Of a DNA stretch of 64,000 nucleotides, positions 30,309-38,376 are shown piece by piece. The stretch's first letter is position 1, and each line of letters opens with the position of its first letter. The translations under genes and the position numbers were made by a program. The notes under the pieces are model-generated. The model saw nothing but the letters and a program-made list of their open reading frames with translations, ran no database searches and was not told where the DNA came from. The stretch comes from Candidatus Kuenenia stuttgartensis (GTDB lineage Bacteria; Planctomycetota; Planctomycetia; Planctomycetales; Planctomycetaceae), in NCBI GenBank assembly GCA_945904015.1, contig CAMDPK010000015.1, forward strand, positions 1 to 64,000. Direction: 5' to 3'.

Positions 30309-31592
30309 ATGTATCTGCGAATGGCCAAACGAGTGCTGCTGGAAACCGACAAGCGACTGGTCGCCAAGTTCCTGTGGAATATGGGGGTCAAAGGAACGCT
30401 GTCGGTCATCAAATACAAACGCCGGATGAAAAAGGGCCAGTTCTTTCCGCCGTTCTTGTACGTCTCGATTCTCAACACCTGCAACCTGCGCTGCCAAGGC
30501 TGCTGGGTCGATGTTTCCGCCAAGCAAGAGAAGATCAGCCTCGATGCTTGGAACCGCCTCGTCAACGAGGCCAAGCAGATGGGCAACGTCTTCTTCGGCA
30601 TCGTCGGCGGCGAGCCGTTCATGCACCCGCAATTGCTCGACATGCTGGCCGCGCATCGCGATTGCTACTTTCAAGTCTTCACGAACGGCCACTTCATCAC
30701 CGACGAGGTCGCTCGCGAAATGCGCCGGCTCGGTAACGTCACGCCGCTGATCAGCGTCGAAGGCAGCGAGATCGTCAGCGACGAACGCCGCGGCCGAGGC
30801 GGAGTGCTCAGCAAGACGATGCAGGGGGTCGAAGCCTGCCTGCGGAACAACCTGCTGACCGGCGTCTGTACCAGCGTCTGCAAAACGAACATCGATGATC
30901 TCGTCACCGAGAAGTGGTTGGACCGCCTGATCGAGATGGGTGTGTTCTACACTTGGTTCCACGTCTATCGCCCGATGGGCCCCGACGCCTGCCCCGACCT
31001 CTGCCTGACTCCGGAGCAACAACTTCAAATCCGCAAATTCGTCGTCGAGATGCGTGCGAAAAAACCGATCGCCATCATCGACGCCTACTACGACGGCGAA
31101 GGCCAAGCCCTCTGCCCGGCCGCGACCGGCATCAGCCACCACATCAACCCGTGGGGCGGCATCGAGCCGTGCCCGATCGTCCAATTCGCGAAGGAGTCGA
31201 TCCACGACGAATCGCGGACGCTGGGCGAGAAGATCATGGGATCAGAATTCCTGCGTGACTTTCGCGCGTTGGCCCAGAAGACAACGCGCGGTTGCATCGT
31301 GCTCGAACGCCCTGACCTGCTGCACAATCTCGTCGTGCTGCACGAGGCAAAAGACACCACCGCTCGCCAAACCGCGATGGCCGAACTGCAAGCGATGACG
31401 ACCCGCACGTCACAATACAACCCGGGCCATGCAATTCCCGAAAAGAGCTGGGTCTACCGTCTACTCAAGCGGTATCTCTTCGCCGACTTCGGCGTCTACA
31501 ACGGCCACGATCACAGCCAATCAGCAGCCCCCGGACAGTTGGCATTGAAGCCTCAAGGATCGGCCGTCGAACTCGGCACCGTTTGCAAGTAG
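30309..31592 (+). CDS. Radical SAM protein with SPASM-like extra cysteines
   Basis: This 427-residue enzyme has its Fe-S/SAM motif at residues 58-65 (CNLRCQGC, CxxxCxxC). Downstream hallmarks are GIVGGEPFMHP (SAM amino-group strand) and ISVEGSE. The C-terminal half has extra cysteines (ALCPAATG; IEPCPIVQ; TRGCIVLE) that could hold an auxiliary cluster, as in SPASM enzymes. The substrate is not evident. GAAAGG precedes ATG 30309. It follows a 57-residue protein, and its 3' end overlaps the convergent cytochrome gene by 40 nt. Confidence 0.88.
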   Translation: MYLRMAKRVLLETDKRLVAKFLWNMGVKGTLSVIKYKRRMKKGQFFPPFLYVSILNTCNLRCQGCWVDVSAKQEKISLDAWNRLVNEAKQMGNVFFGIVGGEPFMHPQLLDMLAAHRDCYFQVFTNGHFITDEVAREMRRLGNVTPLISVEGSEIVSDERRGRGGVLSKTMQGVEACLRNNLLTGVCTSVCKTNIDDLVTEKWLDRLIEMGVFYTWFHVYRPMGPDACPDLCLTPEQQLQIRKFVVEMRAKKPIAIIDAYYDGEGQALCPAATGISHHINPWGGIEPCPIVQFAKESIHDESRTLGEKIMGSEFLRDFRALAQKTTRGCIVLERPDLLHNLVVLHEAKDTTARQTAMAELQAMTTRTSQYNPGHAIPEKSWVYRLLKRYLFADFGVYNGHDHSQSAAPGQLALKPQGSAVELGTVCK

Positions 31593-34500
31593 TGCCACAC
31601 CGCGTCGAACTGTAGGCGGGCGTCGCCGTCGAAGACGTTCTTAACCTTCGTGGTGCGGCCATCGACGACGAGCTTCGGCATGCGTGTGGTCACGTCGTAG
31701 CGCGGTGGATCGAGCGTGAAGCGGCGATAGAAGTCATGGCGGATGCGTTCGCGAGTCAGCGCGAAGTTGATGCCCGGAGCGAGCAGCGTGCTCTTGTCGC
31801 CGGTCGGCGGTAGCGGGCCAATCGCGTGACATTGACGGCAGTCGAGCAATCCCGTTCGCGTGGCGAGGGCTTCGCCGATCTCGGCGAGTTCTGGTTCGAG
31901 GCTCGGTCGTGGCGAGGGATCGCTCGACAAGCCGTGCTCGTGTGCGAAGCCGTCGGCTAGCAGACGCGCACGCGCGGAGAAGCTTGGCATTCGCAGTTTC
32001 ATCCAAGGACGCGGTCGCTCGGAAATCTGACCGGCCAGCAGCGAGTGCATCCACGCCGAGTGCAATTTCTCGCCGGCCCAAGTGAGGTTCGGCACGACTT
32101 CGGGCGGCAGGCCGGATTCGCCTTCATCGGCGAGGATTTCGGAGAGCGAATTCCGGTGACCGTCGCGCGGGTGACAGACGGCACATTGCAAGTCCTCAAC
32201 AAAGCGGCGTGACACGTCTGTGGAAGAGTCGGCAGCCAGTTTCAGCTCATCACTGCGAAGCAATGTCAGCAGCGCGGATTGTTCACCCGGTTTCAAATCG
32301 TAATTGGGCAAGCGATCCGCATGAGTTTGCTGAGCACCGGCGAGACAGCCGCGTGCAGCGGCCTTCCCAAAGACCGACGGCAAATGCGGCTTCGGCAACG
32401 GTTCGTTGGGTGACACGCGATGACATTGCCGGCAACCGAGCGACGCGAACAACTTTTGGCCGCGAGCGACATCGCCATTGAATCGAGTGGCTGGCAATGC
32501 AATGGCCGTGTCGGCTGGTTCGGCCAGCAACTGCGCGAGCGATGCCGCCTCCTGTTCAGAGAGTCCGAAGTCCGGCATTCGACTCCAGGCGTGATGACGG
32601 TGTGGCTGCCGGAGGAAGTTGGCCAATTCGCCTGGCAAGAACTTGTCGCGTGCGAAGAGCAACGATGTTCGATCACCCGGCGGTTCGTCCTTGATCGGCT
32701 GCAACCGATGACAGCCGATGCAACCCAGGTCTTCCCACAACCTCAGTGGTCGCTGGCGAGCGGGGGGCGTCAGCCCCCCGGTTGTATTCGTAACCGAGCG
32801 ATCCTCCGAGGAACCGGGGGGATGACGCACCCCGCTCGCCTTTGTCGGGAGCGACGTCAAATACGCGGCGAGGTCAGCCGCCTGTTGTCGATGTTCGTCA
32901 GTTGGCGATTGCGGGAAGAGTCGCGGCATTCGCGCGTCGGCTCGCATCCGCGAGGGGTTGAGTACCCACTGAGCGATCCACTCGCCGCGCAATCGTGAAC
33001 CGACGCCAGTCAAGTCCGGCGCTTCGGCGTGCAACTCCGGCATCGCACGCTTCGATTGCAGAACCTCATCCGAGACACGATGGCAGCGGACGCATTGATG
33101 ATTCGCGAACAACTCGCGGCCGAGTCGCCGCGACTCGAATTCTTCCGGCAACCGTTCGCAGAACAGCGATGTCGGCGGGATCGGTTCGGTTTCGAAGTCC
33201 GCTCCGCTCCACAGCAACCTCAACGAGACGGGTTGGCCGGCATCCACTCGCTGCACGATTCGCAGCCGGTTGTATCCGCGCACGAGTTCCACATCGCTCG
33301 GTTTGTCATCCGTCGATCGCCACACCACTTGATCACCGATGGAGATCTCGATCGCACCACTGCACTCGGCCGAGAACCGATATGTGCCCCGCCGAGGCGC
33401 GACGAGGTATCCATTGGCGACGATTTCGCGAGCGTCACCAAGTTCTTGACGCTCGATTTGCCAAGCGGCCATGCGCCGGACGTGGGGTAGGCTTCCAGCC
33501 TGCCGATTCGCTTGGCCGGGCAGGTTGGAAACCTGCCCCACGAACTCGCAGCGAATGCCAGGGACCAGCCGCTGCTGTTCCGCTTCGGTCATCGATCCGG
33601 GACGGGGACGCGCCGGCTTGCGTTCAAATTCGTAATCCTGATTGCGAACGGCGTTGATTGTCGCATCCAACCTCCGTTCGATCGGTTGGCCTCTCGTCGT
33701 TCGCAGAGTCATTTGAATCGAAAGTTGATTCACCGGCCGCATGTTGGCCAGTTCGAGGAACACCGCATCGCCCCCTTTGAGGTTGCGGACGTGCGTTGCG
33801 CTGAGCACTTCGATTTCATCGCGACCCTCGTCTCGCGGGTTCGACAGCTTGAACTCCGGCGAGCCGTATGCCGCCGACCAGCGATAGTTCCAGCGCTGCA
33901 CGCGGAAGTTGTCGATGTCCTCCGCCGATTCGGCGTCGAGCTGATCGCTGAACTGAATCAGCAGTCCGTTTCGAAACGTCTGCATCGCGACAGGCAGGCC
34001 GAGCCGATTCGCGATTCGCACGCGCTGCAAACATCCATCCTGGGCGGCGTTGCTGACCCAGCCGCGCAGGCCGCTGACATACAAATGCCCGTCGGCAGAT
34101 CGAAACCGCCCGCGCATGACGCCCGACTCGAAGGCGAGCGGCAGCGGAATCGTCGCACCTTGCACAACGGGAGCCTGTTGCTCGTTGTGAATCGTCTCGC
34201 GTGGGACGAGGAACATGCGGCTGGTGCCGTAGGAGAGGTGCAGCATTTGGCCGCCGAGCGGTCCCCAATGTTGTGGCGGCACCCACACCTGTCCGCCGCA
34301 CGAGTTGTCCTGCAAGCGCGGAATCCAACAAAGCGGCTGAATGAACTCGACGGGAACTTTGTCGCGATGAGCGGACGGCGTGTAGCCGTGAAAGCCTCCG
34401 CGAACGACCTCGAAAATCGCTGAGCCGGGAGTCCATTCTCCCTCTTGAGGTGCGACAGTGAGGATCTCCTGCCCACCGTTCAGAGCCGGACCAATTCCCA

Positions 34501-35947
34501 ATCCGTTCGCGTTGCGAAACCCGGTGGCGACGACTTCCAGCTTTTGTCCGTCGGGAGAAACTCGCAGCAAGCAGCCGTCGTGATCGGTGGCTCCGTCGGC
34601 GTTTCCCTTCAAGAAATAAAACCAGCCAGCCGAATCGGATTCGAGACACGTCACGTACTCGTGGCCGTTGGTCGTGACTTGGCCGTCGTTGTTGAAGTTC
34701 TCGTACCAGTCCGCCTCGCCGTCGCCGTTGAGATCGTGTAGCCGAGTGATCTGGTCTCGGCCGACGACATAGATTTGGTTCTTGACGATTTTCAATCCGA
34801 GTGGCTGAAACAACCCCGTTGCGAATCGCTTCCAGGTCAGCTTCTCCAACTTGTCGTCAATACCGCTGATGAGCCACACGTCGCCATGCAGGGTGCAGAC
34901 GGCGGCGCCGGCAGAAAGCGGCGAGCGACGAGCGGCGAGTGACGAGTCAAAGAAGTCGTGCCCGCCCACGAACATCAGCGCCTTGTACGGGTTGTCGAAC
35001 GGTAGCGTGAGCGTATCGACGACGAGGGCATCGGCTTTGTCGGACACGACTCCCTGCGTTGTGATCTGCTCCGTCCATCGAGCTGGGCCGGGGCGAGTCA
35101 GAGGCTTGAGCCCCTCGTGGGGCAGGTTTTCAACCTGCCCGTCCTGCGATTTCTTCGAGCCGGGTAGGTTGGAAACCTGCCCCACGGGGAACAACAACTT
35201 CAGTTTGACCGATTTGTCGTGAGCCGCGACTTTGGCCGTGATTGGACCTTTCCCATCGCCTCGATTCAAAGTCGCGATCGCTGTGTCCGCAATCGACTCC
35301 ACGCTCGTCCCAGCCGCAGCGACGAGCAGTTCCAGGTCGGTGTCTGATGGCTCGATTTCCAGCTCGCGAGTGAAGACCTTGTGACCGTCACGAGTTTCGA
35401 TCCAGGGGGACTCCAGCACGACGACCTGCTTCGGCCCGACGGTATATTCGAAGACAACTCGGTCGCCATGCAGATGCAGGCCGCGATACTTGGCCCACTC
35501 GCGCGGCAACGGGCCGAATGGCTTCGGTCGCGGGTCGGTGAATTGCCCCTCGCGCGACCAGCCCGGCTGTCTCGGCGAGTGAAATGCGATCTCCTTGCCG
35601 ACCTTCGGTGGGCCGATGATCCCGTAGCGCGCCGGATTGAATTCGAGAAACTCGCCGGTCCAACCGCAGACGACGCGCAGCAGTTCCGTGTCAAACAGGA
35701 TCGACGCCTCGGACTTCTCGCCGATGCGCACGGCGATCCCTTTGAGCGTCACCTCTTTCGGCGTCCAAATTGTCGCCGAGTAGAATCGGCCGACGTTCAT
35801 TTGCTGCAAGCGGTTGTCGACCGAGTCTTGCTCGGTCCACTTGAAACCGACGGCGTCTTCGCCCCAGTGGCCGGTGATTTTGTTCGGTTTCAACGTAGCC
35901 GCGTCACTCCGTGACGCGGGCGTCGGGTCACGGAGTGACCCGACTAC
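31553..35947 (-). CDS. Giant DUF6797/PVC-type beta-propeller/PA14-like/multihaem cytochrome c, lacking own start
   Basis: From 35947 the frame encodes 1464 residues. Order: DUF6797-like start (HWGEDAVGFKWTEQDSVDNR), PVC sugar-dehydrogenase-like propeller (RDQITRLHDLNGDGEADWY), PA14-like module (GTYRFSAECSGAIEISIGD), then five CxxCH sites (CVRCH, CIGCH, CRQCH, CAVCH, CRQCH). It is a periplasmic electron-transfer or sugar-oxidising protein by family. No signal peptide or good start precedes HWGED; in-frame TTG 35895 and ATG 35800 are weak. The frame is the -1 frame of thuA, entered at an A9 run. Three palindromes lie inside in frame (32755, 33482, 35117). Confidence 0.88.
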   Translation of the reverse strand, partial: VVGSLRDPTPASRSDAATLKPNKITGHWGEDAVGFKWTEQDSVDNRLQQMNVGRFYSATIWTPKEVTLKGIAVRIGEKSEASILFDTELLRVVCGWTGEFLEFNPARYGIIGPPKVGKEIAFHSPRQPGWSREGQFTDPRPKPFGPLPREWAKYRGLHLHGDRVVFEYTVGPKQVVVLESPWIETRDGHKVFTRELEIEPSDTDLELLVAAAGTSVESIADTAIATLNRGDGKGPITAKVAAHDKSVKLKLLFPVGQVSNLPGSKKSQDGQVENLPHEGLKPLTRPGPARWTEQITTQGVVSDKADALVVDTLTLPFDNPYKALMFVGGHDFFDSSLAARRSPLSAGAAVCTLHGDVWLISGIDDKLEKLTWKRFATGLFQPLGLKIVKNQIYVVGRDQITRLHDLNGDGEADWYENFNNDGQVTTNGHEYVTCLESDSAGWFYFLKGNADGATDHDGCLLRVSPDGQKLEVVATGFRNANGLGIGPALNGGQEILTVAPQEGEWTPGSAIFEVVRGGFHGYTPSAHRDKVPVEFIQPLCWIPRLQDNSCGGQVWVPPQHWGPLGGQMLHLSYGTSRMFLVPRETIHNEQQAPVVQGATIPLPLAFESGVMRGRFRSADGHLYVSGLRGWVSNAAQDGCLQRVRIANRLGLPVAMQTFRNGLLIQFSDQLDAESAEDIDNFRVQRWNYRWSAAYGSPEFKLSNPRDEGRDEIEVLSATHVRNLKGGDAVFLELANMRPVNQLSIQMTLRTTRGQPIERRLDATINAVRNQDYEFERKPARPRPGSMTEAEQQRLVPGIRCEFVGQVSNLPGQANRQAGSLPHVRRMAAWQIERQELGDAREIVANGYLVAPRRGTYRFSAECSGAIEISIGDQVVWRSTDDKPSDVELVRGYNRLRIVQRVDAGQPVSLRLLWSGADFETEPIPPTSLFCERLPEEFESRRLGRELFANHQCVRCHRVSDEVLQSKRAMPELHAEAPDLTGVGSRLRGEWIAQWVLNPSRMRADARMPRLFPQSPTDEHRQQAADLAAYLTSLPTKASGVRHPPGSSEDRSVTNTTGGLTPPARQRPLRLWEDLGCIGCHRLQPIKDEPPGDRTSLLFARDKFLPGELANFLRQPHRHHAWSRMPDFGLSEQEAASLAQLLAEPADTAIALPATRFNGDVARGQKLFASLGCRQCHRVSPNEPLPKPHLPSVFGKAAARGCLAGAQQTHADRLPNYDLKPGEQSALLTLLRSDELKLAADSSTDVSRRFVEDLQCAVCHPRDGHRNSLSEILADEGESGLPPEVVPNLTWAGEKLHSAWMHSLLAGQISERPRPWMKLRMPSFSARARLLADGFAHEHGLSSDPSPRPSLEPELAEIGEALATRTGLLDCRQCHAIGPLPPTGDKSTLLAPGINFALTRERIRHDFYRRFTLDPPRYDVTTRMPKLVVDGRTTKVKNVFDGDARLQFDAVWHYLQTVPSSTADP
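32755..32840. repeat. GCGAGCGGGGGGCGTCAGCC palindrome inside cytochrome gene
   Basis: Arms GGCGAGCGGGGGGCGTCAGC and TGACGCACCCCGCTCGCC enclose CCCCCCGG and CCGGGGGG. It is in frame (SGVRHPP ... GGLTPPA on the coding strand) between two haem motifs. Confidence 0.82.
33482..33541. repeat. family A palindrome inside cytochrome gene, copy 1
   Basis: GTGGGGTAGGCTTCCAGCC faces GGTTGGAAACCTGCCCCAC. It is translated as VGQVSNLPGQ...GSLPHV, inserted at the start of the PA14-like module. Confidence 0.88.
35117..35185. repeat. family A palindrome inside cytochrome gene, copy 2
   Basis: GTGGGGCAGGTTTTCAACC faces GGTTGGAAACCTGCCCCAC. It is translated VGQVSNLPG...GQVENLPH near residue 260 of the cytochrome. 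Confidence 0.9.
35897..35947. repeat. GTAGTCGGGTCACTCC palindrome at the thuA/cytochrome junction
   Basis: On the minus strand, GTAGTCGGGTCACTCCGTGAC pairs with GTCACGGAGTGACGCGGCTAC. Each half is also a hairpin itself (TCGGGTCAC-TCC-GTGACCCGA). It supplies the thuA TAG stop and is open in the cytochrome frame. Confidence 0.88.
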
Positions 35948-35956
35948 TTTTTTTTT
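35923..35956 (-). other. Candidate -1 slippage site: A9-G, TAG, hairpin
   Basis: The thuA codons read GCA AAA AAA AAG TAG, so an A AAA AAG heptamer sits in phase (35953-35947). The stop follows at once, and a 9-bp, 3-nt-loop stem starts 3 nt after the heptamer. A -1 slip joins thuA to the cytochrome frame. Polymerase slippage on A9 would do the same. The heptamer type is the one known from E. coli dnaX; use here is inferred. Confidence 0.5.
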
Positions 35957-38376
35957 GCAGACGCCGGCATTCCATCGGCACTGCCGGGAATCCACGCTTT
36001 GAGCTTGTTCGCCGACTGATCGACGAAGCTGCCACCCTCGGTCAGCGTGTCGAAGTTCCACAAGGCGACTGTCGAGTCGTCAGCCTTCAGAGGCTCACTC
36101 GGCACCTCTTTGATCGGACGCAGGCCGCGTGAGATGCGCAGGTCGTCGATCACTCCATCGCAGCCGATCACTTGATCGACCAGCGTGCCGATCCCGAGTT
36201 CCTCGTGTGCCGGCTTCAGCGCGGAGCCGAACGCGCCGTCTTTCGCCTTCACTTCTTGATCCGCGACCTGCTTGCCGTCCACAAACAAGCGGATGCGAGC
36301 CGCCTCGAACTGCATCGCCACGAAATGCCATTTGCCGTCGGCAATGTCGGTCGCGGCTCGGACGTGATCGGGAGTCAGGCCCGGCGCGTAAACCGTCAAA
36401 TGCCCGGAACCCGGCATCGTGAAAACCTCCCAGTGCGTCGGCGACGACTTCAATTCGTTCGCGACAAGAATGTTGTACGAGCTTTTGCTGTCGAGCTTCG
36501 TCCACAACTCGACCGTGAATGGCAGCGTGCGGAAGTCGTCGCGGTGATTCACGAACGCACCGCCGATCCGAGTATCGAGAGCTTTCCCAAATTTGCCCTC
36601 AGTCGTGGCCGACGCAGTTCTTCGCGGAGCCTTCTCAGTAACAGTGACTTCACCACGTTTCAGCGACTCTTCGAGCGTCCACGGACTACCGGCTCGGAAC
36701 AGCGTGTTCTCCGTGATCGCGACCGGCGGATCAAAGCTGAGCGGATCACGCCGCGCGGCCCAAACGGTCCCTCGACGAATCAATGCTCCGGCTTTGCGAA
36801 TCGAAACATCCGCGTGGCCAAGCACCGTTTGAAAGACGCGAGCTTTCGATTGCTCGTAAGCCCATGCCAGCGGCTCGTCTTGCTTCGTGACCTTCGAGGT
36901 CGCCGTGACGAGCGGCACGATCGGCAACGCGCCTTGCTGACGGAAATAGAGTTCGTCATCCGTGTCGAACGAAGGCAAGCCAGCCGTGACGGGATGCTTC
37001 TCGCCAGCAGCGGAGAGATCGACCTTGAACGTGCCGAACGCATCGTGACCGCTGAGTCCCGGCTTGTGATCCCAAATACGGCGAACGATCTGCGTGCGGA
37101 ACTCCGGCCAGTCGGCTTCCTTGTTCGGCAACGTGTCGGTCCAACTGCCGTTCGCGAAATGAATGATCGACAGCCCGCCGCCATCGTCGAGAAATTTCTT
37201 GAGTCCCGCTTTCGCCGCATCATTCAGTCCCGGCCGATCCCAACTGCTGTAGTTGAGGACGAGGGCGTCGTAGTTCGTAGCCCTGTCGCTCCGCGACAGG
37301 ACAGCCGTCGCGCCATCGGCAGTCGATGCGCCGTTGACGCTCTTTGGTTTTTCGACGCTGGCTCCGCGCTCGGCTTTCCTGTCGCGGAGCGACAGGGCTA
37401 CGTTTGCCAAGTCGTTCGGGTTCTCCGTGACCTCAACGACGACGCGCGGATCTTGTTCGAGAACCGGGATCAGCGCGGCGGTCGTCTTCCGCCAGTCGTG
37501 GGCCGGATGATTGTGGCCTGTGACAATCAATACGCGGATCGGTTCTTCCATCGTGGAGACCACGCCGGCGGCCGGGACATCGACTCCCGCCGTCCAGACG
37601 ATTGCGTTGAGGATCGTGCGTCGGAAGTTGTCGTCCCACCAGTTTTGGAAGAAGTGTCCGCCGGTCGTGCCGAAGCCTCGGCCGCCGTCTTTGCGTTCGA
37701 CGGCCCACGCGACGACGTGATCTTTTTGCTGCCCCGGAGGTTTCGTCAGCCAGATCGGTTTGACGCGGTCATCGCCGTCGCGGAAGCGGAGGTTGTAGTA
37801 GAACTCTTCGCGCGCGGTGAACGGTTTCACGCCGCGAGCGACGGGGTGTTCGGCATTGCCGAGCGTCACATTCGCGTCCCAGGTGCTGATCGCCGAGAAC
37901 CACTTGTTCGCGGCCGGTCCCTTTTTGTAGTCGAAGTAGCCGCCGACCCATTCGGTGATCTGGTCGTGAACTCGGCTGGGATTGAACGTCGTCCAGTGAA
38001 ATTGGACGAATCCGCAACCTCGCTTCATCTGCCGTCCGAGCGTTTGAAATCGCTCGCCGACGTACAGCGGATGATCGGCCGCGTTGCGGTCACCGCCGTC
38101 GGAGATCATCACAATCGTCGCGGCATCGTCGAGCGTCTTCTCGTCGGTCGGCCAACCATTGAAGTGCGTCTCGACGGCGACCTTGCCCTTCGTGCTCGGT
38201 GACGTGTCGAGCAGATGCTTCAGCAGAATCACGCTCTTTTCGTACTCGTGCGTGTGCTTGCCGTGCCCGGTGATCGGGCCGGCAATCAACACGATCTTCT
38301 TCGGAACAGGTTCGGCTGCATCGAGCCAGCCGGACGCGATCAACAAAAAACTCAGTGCCAAACAACACCGTCGCAT
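35944..38376 (-). CDS. Secreted protein with two ThuA-like domains and a LamG domain
   Basis: This 810-residue protein has a signal peptide (CCLALSFLLIASGWLDAAEP). The first ThuA-like (glutamine-amidotransferase fold) domain spans ~25-275 (VLIAGPITGHGKHTHEYE; GFVQFHWTTF). The second is ~285-550 (VLIVTGHNHPAHDW; LSIIHFANGSW; KPGLSGHDAFG). A LamG-like lectin domain follows to ~790 (FTVELWTKLDSKSSYN; WHFVAMQFEAARIRLFVDG; GVIDDLRISRG). GGAGG precedes ATG 38376. A palindrome (37277-37401) is inserted in frame near residues 325-367. The gene ends ASAKKK then TAG at a slippery A9 run, before the cytochrome frame. Confidence 0.92.
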   Translation of the reverse strand: MRRCCLALSFLLIASGWLDAAEPVPKKIVLIAGPITGHGKHTHEYEKSVILLKHLLDTSPSTKGKVAVETHFNGWPTDEKTLDDAATIVMISDGGDRNAADHPLYVGERFQTLGRQMKRGCGFVQFHWTTFNPSRVHDQITEWVGGYFDYKKGPAANKWFSAISTWDANVTLGNAEHPVARGVKPFTAREEFYYNLRFRDGDDRVKPIWLTKPPGQQKDHVVAWAVERKDGGRGFGTTGGHFFQNWWDDNFRRTILNAIVWTAGVDVPAAGVVSTMEEPIRVLIVTGHNHPAHDWRKTTAALIPVLEQDPRVVVEVTENPNDLANVALSLRDRKAERGASVEKPKSVNGASTADGATAVLSRSDRATNYDALVLNYSSWDRPGLNDAAKAGLKKFLDDGGGLSIIHFANGSWTDTLPNKEADWPEFRTQIVRRIWDHKPGLSGHDAFGTFKVDLSAAGEKHPVTAGLPSFDTDDELYFRQQGALPIVPLVTATSKVTKQDEPLAWAYEQSKARVFQTVLGHADVSIRKAGALIRRGTVWAARRDPLSFDPPVAITENTLFRAGSPWTLEESLKRGEVTVTEKAPRRTASATTEGKFGKALDTRIGGAFVNHRDDFRTLPFTVELWTKLDSKSSYNILVANELKSSPTHWEVFTMPGSGHLTVYAPGLTPDHVRAATDIADGKWHFVAMQFEAARIRLFVDGKQVADQEVKAKDGAFGSALKPAHEELGIGTLVDQVIGCDGVIDDLRISRGLRPIKEVPSEPLKADDSTVALWNFDTLTEGGSFVDQSANKLKAWIPGSADGMPASAKKK
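37277..37401. repeat. GTAGCCCTGTCGCTCCGCGA palindrome inside thuA gene
   Basis: Ends GTAGCCCTGTCGCTCCGCGA and TCGCGGAGCGACAGGGCTAC, 125 bp, same length and ends as 11029-11153. It is read in frame (NVALSLRDRKAERG ... VLSRSDRATN). Confidence 0.92.

Follow-up and report, generated by a model that had tools for sequence, protein, structure and literature searches.

A -1 ribosomal frameshift within a run of adenines needs a heptamer, for which six or seven A's are required, and structure in the RNA usually helps. Productive slippage on A or T runs is well documented for rather few cellular genes of bacteria, of which Thermus dnaX is the best known (PMC5009743). Efficient slippage by RNA polymerase in vivo has been reported at nine A's or T's, and in Thermus dnaX such slippage has been related to the presence of two tRNA-Lys, E. 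coli having only one, which pairs weakly with AAG (PMC5009743). Where the shift is near 50%, one base change can swap which product is the default (PMC5009743). Transcriptional frameshifting on poly-A is described for an interrupted gene, tssM of Citrobacter rodentium (PMC4256274). The main text of a genome-wide frameshift survey names no ThuA or cytochrome gene, and a mention in its supplements is possible. A separate body of work concerns GTAG REPs, short dispersed palindromes that carry a GTAG tag and often form inverted pairs; Planctomycetes are among the groups reported to have them, for the most part behind coding regions and sometimes within genes (PMC3733652).

The locus considered here lies in a 64,000-nucleotide stretch of planctomycete DNA (the window), where nine A's stand at the joint between a ThuA-LamG gene and a cytochrome module. 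It resembles Thermus thermophilus dnaX in having a nine-base A/T run in the gene, short and long forms that would share their N-terminal part, two tRNA-Lys species in the genome and, where DUF1080 and ThuA are fused in one gene (DUF1080//ThuA), stops close by in the alternative frames (PMC5009743). It differs from Thermus dnaX in that the short form would come from the encoded frame and the long form from slippage, in that the product is an exported protein-cytochrome fusion rather than a polymerase subunit, and in that one lineage has the design in several genes that are unrelated to each other. With E. coli dnaX the window's genus has in common an A_AAA_AAG heptamer in phase and a downstream stem-loop; here, however, the hairpin sequence is not conserved and is missing in a second genus, the roles of the frames are reversed, and in a second gene (STN-like//TPR) the run length of nine is kept in any phase. 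As described for C. rodentium tssM, slippage on an A-run would yield two length variants from an interrupted gene (PMC4256274); unlike the case presented there, the present joint is conserved between genera and recurs in several genes. Conservation of the arrangement across both genera and genes argues for a maintained feature rather than the rescue of one broken gene.

The joint in the window

On the minus strand, to which all coordinates given below for the window refer, the joint reads ...TCT GCA AAA AAA AAG TAG in the ThuA frame. The A9 run at 35948..35956, set as GCA AAA AAA AAG in that frame, is the candidate slippage site, and the TAG at 35944..35946 is the stop of the unslipped frame, both assigned with the help of the genus comparison. 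The upstream ThuA-LamG ORF (35944..38376), which begins with the leader peptide MRRCCLALSFLLIASGWLDAAEP, would give a short product of 810 aa; its best ThuA stretch (PF06283) is at 36757..37533, residues 282-540, and its best LamG-like stretch (PF13385) at 36124..36540, residues 613-751. The -1 frame is entered at the GTA at 35947 and meets no stop until the TGA ending at 31553, so that the downstream module of the putative long product (31553..35947) comprises 1464 codons and a stop. Our reading of the ORFs bears out the initial annotation, which had described this frame as open over that length and as having neither signal peptide nor convincing start. Within the module lie a DUF6797 domain (PF20601; 35423..35701, residues 84-176) and a cytochrome c domain (PF00034; best stretch 32849..33121, residues 944-1034), and the translation holds five CxxCH motifs in its C-terminal part. 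A fusion of ThuA-LamG with this DUF6797/propeller/cytochrome c module is predicted to be about 2274 aa long, with the predicted junction peptides SAKKKVVGSLRD. Runs of exactly nine A's number only 13 in the 7.43 Mb of this genome.

The cytochrome ORF (31553-35947) also contains repeated peptides of the form VGQVSNLPG...QVENLPH, which look like a dispersed DNA repeat inserted in frame; among the ten species compared below, the first such place is common only to the window genome and G005.

Directly after the run comes a palindromic repeat of 53 nt (35895..35947), GTAG...CTAC, REP-pair-like in form, whose first four bases are the G of AAG together with the TAG. It folds as one long predicted RNA hairpin (-42.6 kcal/mol, z -6.4, with 0 of 200 shuffles as stable); an earlier reading of the sequence was right that the palindrome supplies the TAG, while the 9-bp hairpin it gave proves too short for this 53-nt element. 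The genome holds 27 further matches to the palindrome and eight Y1_Tnp matches. The most fitting interpretation of the element is a REP pair of the GTAG type that came to lie after the stop codon of the short ORF, a usual position for REPs: like GTAG-tagged REP elements it is an inverted GTAG...CTAC pair dispersed in the genome, and unlike the usual ones it lies inside a frame that would have to be read through for the long product. Its deletion from the sequence would put the ThuA-LamG and cytochrome frames back together.

At four further A9 sites of the window genome the run is followed by a GCCGACGT... hairpin, a repeated terminator-like unit that apparently lies outside genes. An intrinsic terminator (hairpin on the plus strand, then T9) was also considered as the reason for the run at the joint and rejected, since other genes keep A9 without a hairpin and terminator function is thus not why the run is kept.

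Conservation of the joint within the genus and beyond

The gene pair is present in nine of the 11 other genomes of the genus, which with the window makes ten species for comparison. Of the 12 genus members, 10 contain the 15-mer GCAAAAAAAAAGTAG exactly once, where ThuA-LamG and cytochrome meet; in the same search its reversed control pattern has zero occurrences, so that chance does not account for the site. All ten species end ThuA-LamG on the identical five codons TCT GCA AAA AAA AAG, and all ten have the cytochrome module in the -1 frame relative to it; among the other invariant Lys columns of ThuA-LamG, only 7 of 30 use a single codon across the ten species. The ending GCA AAA AAA AAG TAG, with A_AAA_AAG in phase, had been proposed from the window and recurs in every one of the ten, and the possibility raised with it, that a homopolymer read error had produced the frame relation, is ruled out by an identical A9 in ten separately assembled genomes. 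Within the genus we found at this joint neither a run of eight or ten A's, an in-frame A10 included, nor relatives with a cytochrome that has its own leader and no A-run. Two members had been considered as counter-examples and were set aside: G001 has a fused copy without an A-run that clusters with genera g45/g47 in the cytochrome tree, apart from the other ten, and in G008 the contig is cut, which leaves no test.

In all ten species the -1 frame is open and in register, whatever palindromic element follows the TAG. The peptide ITGHWGEDAVGFKWTEQDSVDNRLQQ is nearly invariant after the joint and stands upstream of the first ATG common to all ten, which is codon 27 of the conserved cytochrome stretch; 26 conserved residues precede it, and upstream of that stretch no start codon is common to all ten species. 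Judged by this comparison, the downstream frame, intact and conserved directly after the joint, is under constraint. Given conserved residues ahead of the shared ATG and the lack of any shared earlier start, the simplest reading would be that ribosomes get to the cytochrome only through ThuA-LamG.

A strong hairpin follows the TAG in 10/10 genus species, starting 0-12 nt behind it and with energies from -28.7 to -137.4 kcal/mol over stretches of 71-179 nt, but these hairpins come from about four unrelated kinds of palindrome, and even the sister species G000 (the window genome) and G005 carry different kinds. The presence of some palindrome in all ten could mean that a stimulator is selected for, or that elements have inserted again and again at a site that tolerates them.

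Beyond the genus, all three species of g60 (G118, G119 and G120), with 52-62% identity in ThuA-LamG, have the joint as GTA AAA AAA AAG with the cytochrome again in -1. Here the unslipped frame continues for some 30 codons past the joint with no TAG at the site, and no palindrome was found at the joint of any of the three. In g59, most of g72, g2 and others, ThuA-LamG and cytochrome form one ORF without an A-run, as they do in the fused orthologs of G117 and G012; with so many fused orthologs lacking a run, the design with two products does not hold throughout. Exactly nine A's nevertheless stand at the joint of a fused ORF in G173 (g72) and in 8 of 12 g49 species, and in 7 of these 9 a slip to -1 would run into a stop 2-3 codons further on and so release a short form. 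The split and fused A9 arrangements together fit a swap of the default product by a single change. A DUF6797 cytochrome that stands alone behind a leader of its own occurs in two distant genera, and no ThuA-LamG was found within the 1.5 kb flanks of these. The cytochrome tree leaves g1, g60+g59 and g72 unresolved, so that A9 may have been gained once and then lost, or gained several times.

Other genes with nine A's at a joint

The A9 sites discussed here were found by pattern search of the genomes. In the window genome two more of the 13 exact-A9 runs stand at joints within long coding regions. One of them (G000:C178:13488) lies between an STN-like ORF and a TPR ORF in -1 relation; the upstream part is called STN-like from its translation and has no Pfam match, and the downstream part matches TPR_14. 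Across two planctomycete families, 39 of 40 recovered runs at STN-like//TPR split junctions are A9 and one is A10. This count comes from a search for runs of at least nine, and a first pass with a threshold of at least seven had found no such junction at A7 or A8. Among the 40 junctions the codon phases of the run are distributed 20/10/10 and the following base is C in 20, G in 18 and T in 2; on these counts, it is run length, not codon phase, that appears conserved. The frame relation was scored as -1 in 38 and as +1 in two, with contig ends truncating G014 (one of the +1 cases) and a few of the -1 cases. The other +1 ortholog, in G036, has its A9 in a relation that suits polymerase slippage better than a ribosomal -1 shift. 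One split ortholog, in G032, has no A-run, and in ten fused orthologs from other families the 900 nt preceding the match hold no A-run of at least seven. The 70 nt after the run are no more structured than their surroundings. That one conserved RNA structure underlies all these joints was judged unlikely: the hairpins of the window's genus are unrelated to one another, the second genus has none, and STN-like//TPR shows no excess. STN-like//TPR is the most widespread A9-split gene and probably the best suited to experiments.

Two more genes carry the run. At the domain joint of the fused DUF1080//ThuA gene (G000:C84:26419) nine genus members have A9 and one has A10, and in the nine checked both alternative frames reach a stop within 4-7 codons. 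The third of the split genes, phosphonate-binding-like//PQQ propeller, reads A9-G-TAG in G118 (G118:C1:35055) and A9-G-TAA in G117 (G117:C81:8488), and its downstream propeller part has no leader.

Over seven genomes, 11 of 77 exact-A9 sites are -1 split junctions, as against 38 of 3576 arbitrary positions in the unrelated loci that served as the null, a difference whose significance is overstated because orthologs recur among the 11 and only three gene families are independent. At runs of A6-A7 the corresponding figure is 0/374. Altogether A9 marks split junctions in three gene families and lies in a fused frame in two. With somewhat less assurance than attaches to the window locus itself, the comparison favours reading exact A9 as a general device at multidomain joints in two planctomycete families, which would act through polymerase slippage, with either frame as the default, and would apportion expression between a short N-terminal protein and a giant fusion in several unrelated genes per genome, in dozens of genera.

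Probable slippage at the joint and its meaning

For the window, the A9 run is quite probably a programmed slippage site that joins an exported ThuA-LamG module to a cytochrome module and yields two products. Faithful transcripts would be translated to the TAG, giving the 810-aa ThuA-LamG protein; where RNA polymerase slips on the run, adding one A (or losing two), the downstream module would come into frame, and such transcripts would give the protein of about 2274 aa, exported by the ThuA leader, so that haem could be attached to it outside the cytoplasm. Other lineages would have the roles exchanged, the encoded frame giving the fusion and slippage the short form. The two products and the A-run as their source had been proposed from the window, and the comparison supports both; that the two proteins are made, in what ratio, and by slipping of the polymerase rather than the ribosome, we infer from sequence comparison. 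The genome has both tRNA-Lys(CTT) and tRNA-Lys(TTT). Further copies of both are found in what looks like a mobile-element tRNA array, with 21 tRNA genes in less than 4 kb (G000:C106:21904-25558).

The nearest competitor is a programmed -1 shift of the ribosome at A_AAA_AAG, stimulated by the hairpin in the manner of E. coli dnaX, which would yield the same two products. The heptamer in phase and the strong hairpin close behind the TAG, each present in all ten species, speak for it, and every A9 junction offers a possible A_AAA_AAA/G. Six or seven A's would suffice for such a shift, and yet nine are kept, in STN-like//TPR in 39 of 40 cases whatever the phase or next base; the palindrome is absent in the second genus and unrelated in sequence between sister species, STN-like//TPR has no excess structure, the genome encodes a separate tRNA-Lys for AAG, and the G036 junction is of +1 type. 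We therefore regard a ribosomal shift as the main cause as unlikely. The initial annotation had invoked this dnaX-like combination, and its heptamer stands, in phase in 10/10, while the stem is absent from the second genus and from the other A9 genes; the alternative it also named, polymerase slippage on A9, fits better. A constant nine A's in any phase and before any base, with no shared structure and with two tRNA-Lys, places polymerase slippage first and the ribosomal shift second, and at the window locus the two may add up: ribosomal -1 slipping on A_AAA_AAG may contribute besides the polymerase, and the palindrome behind the TAG could either enhance this or simply be a repeat that the linker tolerates.

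That the palindrome has split a formerly single gene was the initial annotation's other proposal. In this reading the split would be recent and the downstream part decaying or silent, and the single fused ORF of outgroup genera, the dispersed nature of the element and the rejoining of the frames on removal of its 53 nt would all agree with it. The same A9 break, however, is present in all ten species whatever their palindrome, and in a second genus that has none, and the frame right behind the joint is intact and conserved; A9 and the -1 relation are independent of the palindrome even if distant genera are fused, and the proposal is left with hardly any probability. On these comparisons, the A9 joint stems neither from an error in reading nor from a gene that broke recently. 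A further idea, that of two separate genes whose frame relation is incidental, the cytochrome using its own start, has to reckon with the maturation of c-type cytochromes outside the cytoplasm. The ATG shared at codon 27 and the free-standing DUF6797 cytochromes with leaders in two distant genera would suit that idea; a module without a leader, conserved residues before that ATG with no shared start upstream of them, and an exactly conserved A9 do not, and we hold it to be very improbable. A-runs can serve as contingency loci in bacteria, and replication slippage might in principle toggle the fusion within a population. The constancy of the run, 10/10 at the window joint and 39/40 in STN-like//TPR, and the fact that no genus member has an in-frame A10 at the window joint make phase variation scarcely credible as the explanation.

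If polymerase slippage at A9 is the cause, as we favour, there are consequences for annotation as well as for biology. Gene callers cut A9-joined proteins in two; the start-less giant cytochrome would pass for a fragment, and the fusion would be absent from protein databases that rely on such calls. ThuA, DUF1080 and cytochromes of this kind are typical components of proteins that planctomycetes export and that have links to the breakdown of sugars. With a free ThuA-LamG protein and a cytochrome-bearing form behind one leader, the cell would need no second promoter to fix the proportion of the two. From the comparison it seems that a single device serves several genes of this lineage that are unrelated to one another, with a constant nine bases in any phase, and the A9 genes offer a ready-made set in which to study the tuning of slippage and the reason for the number nine.
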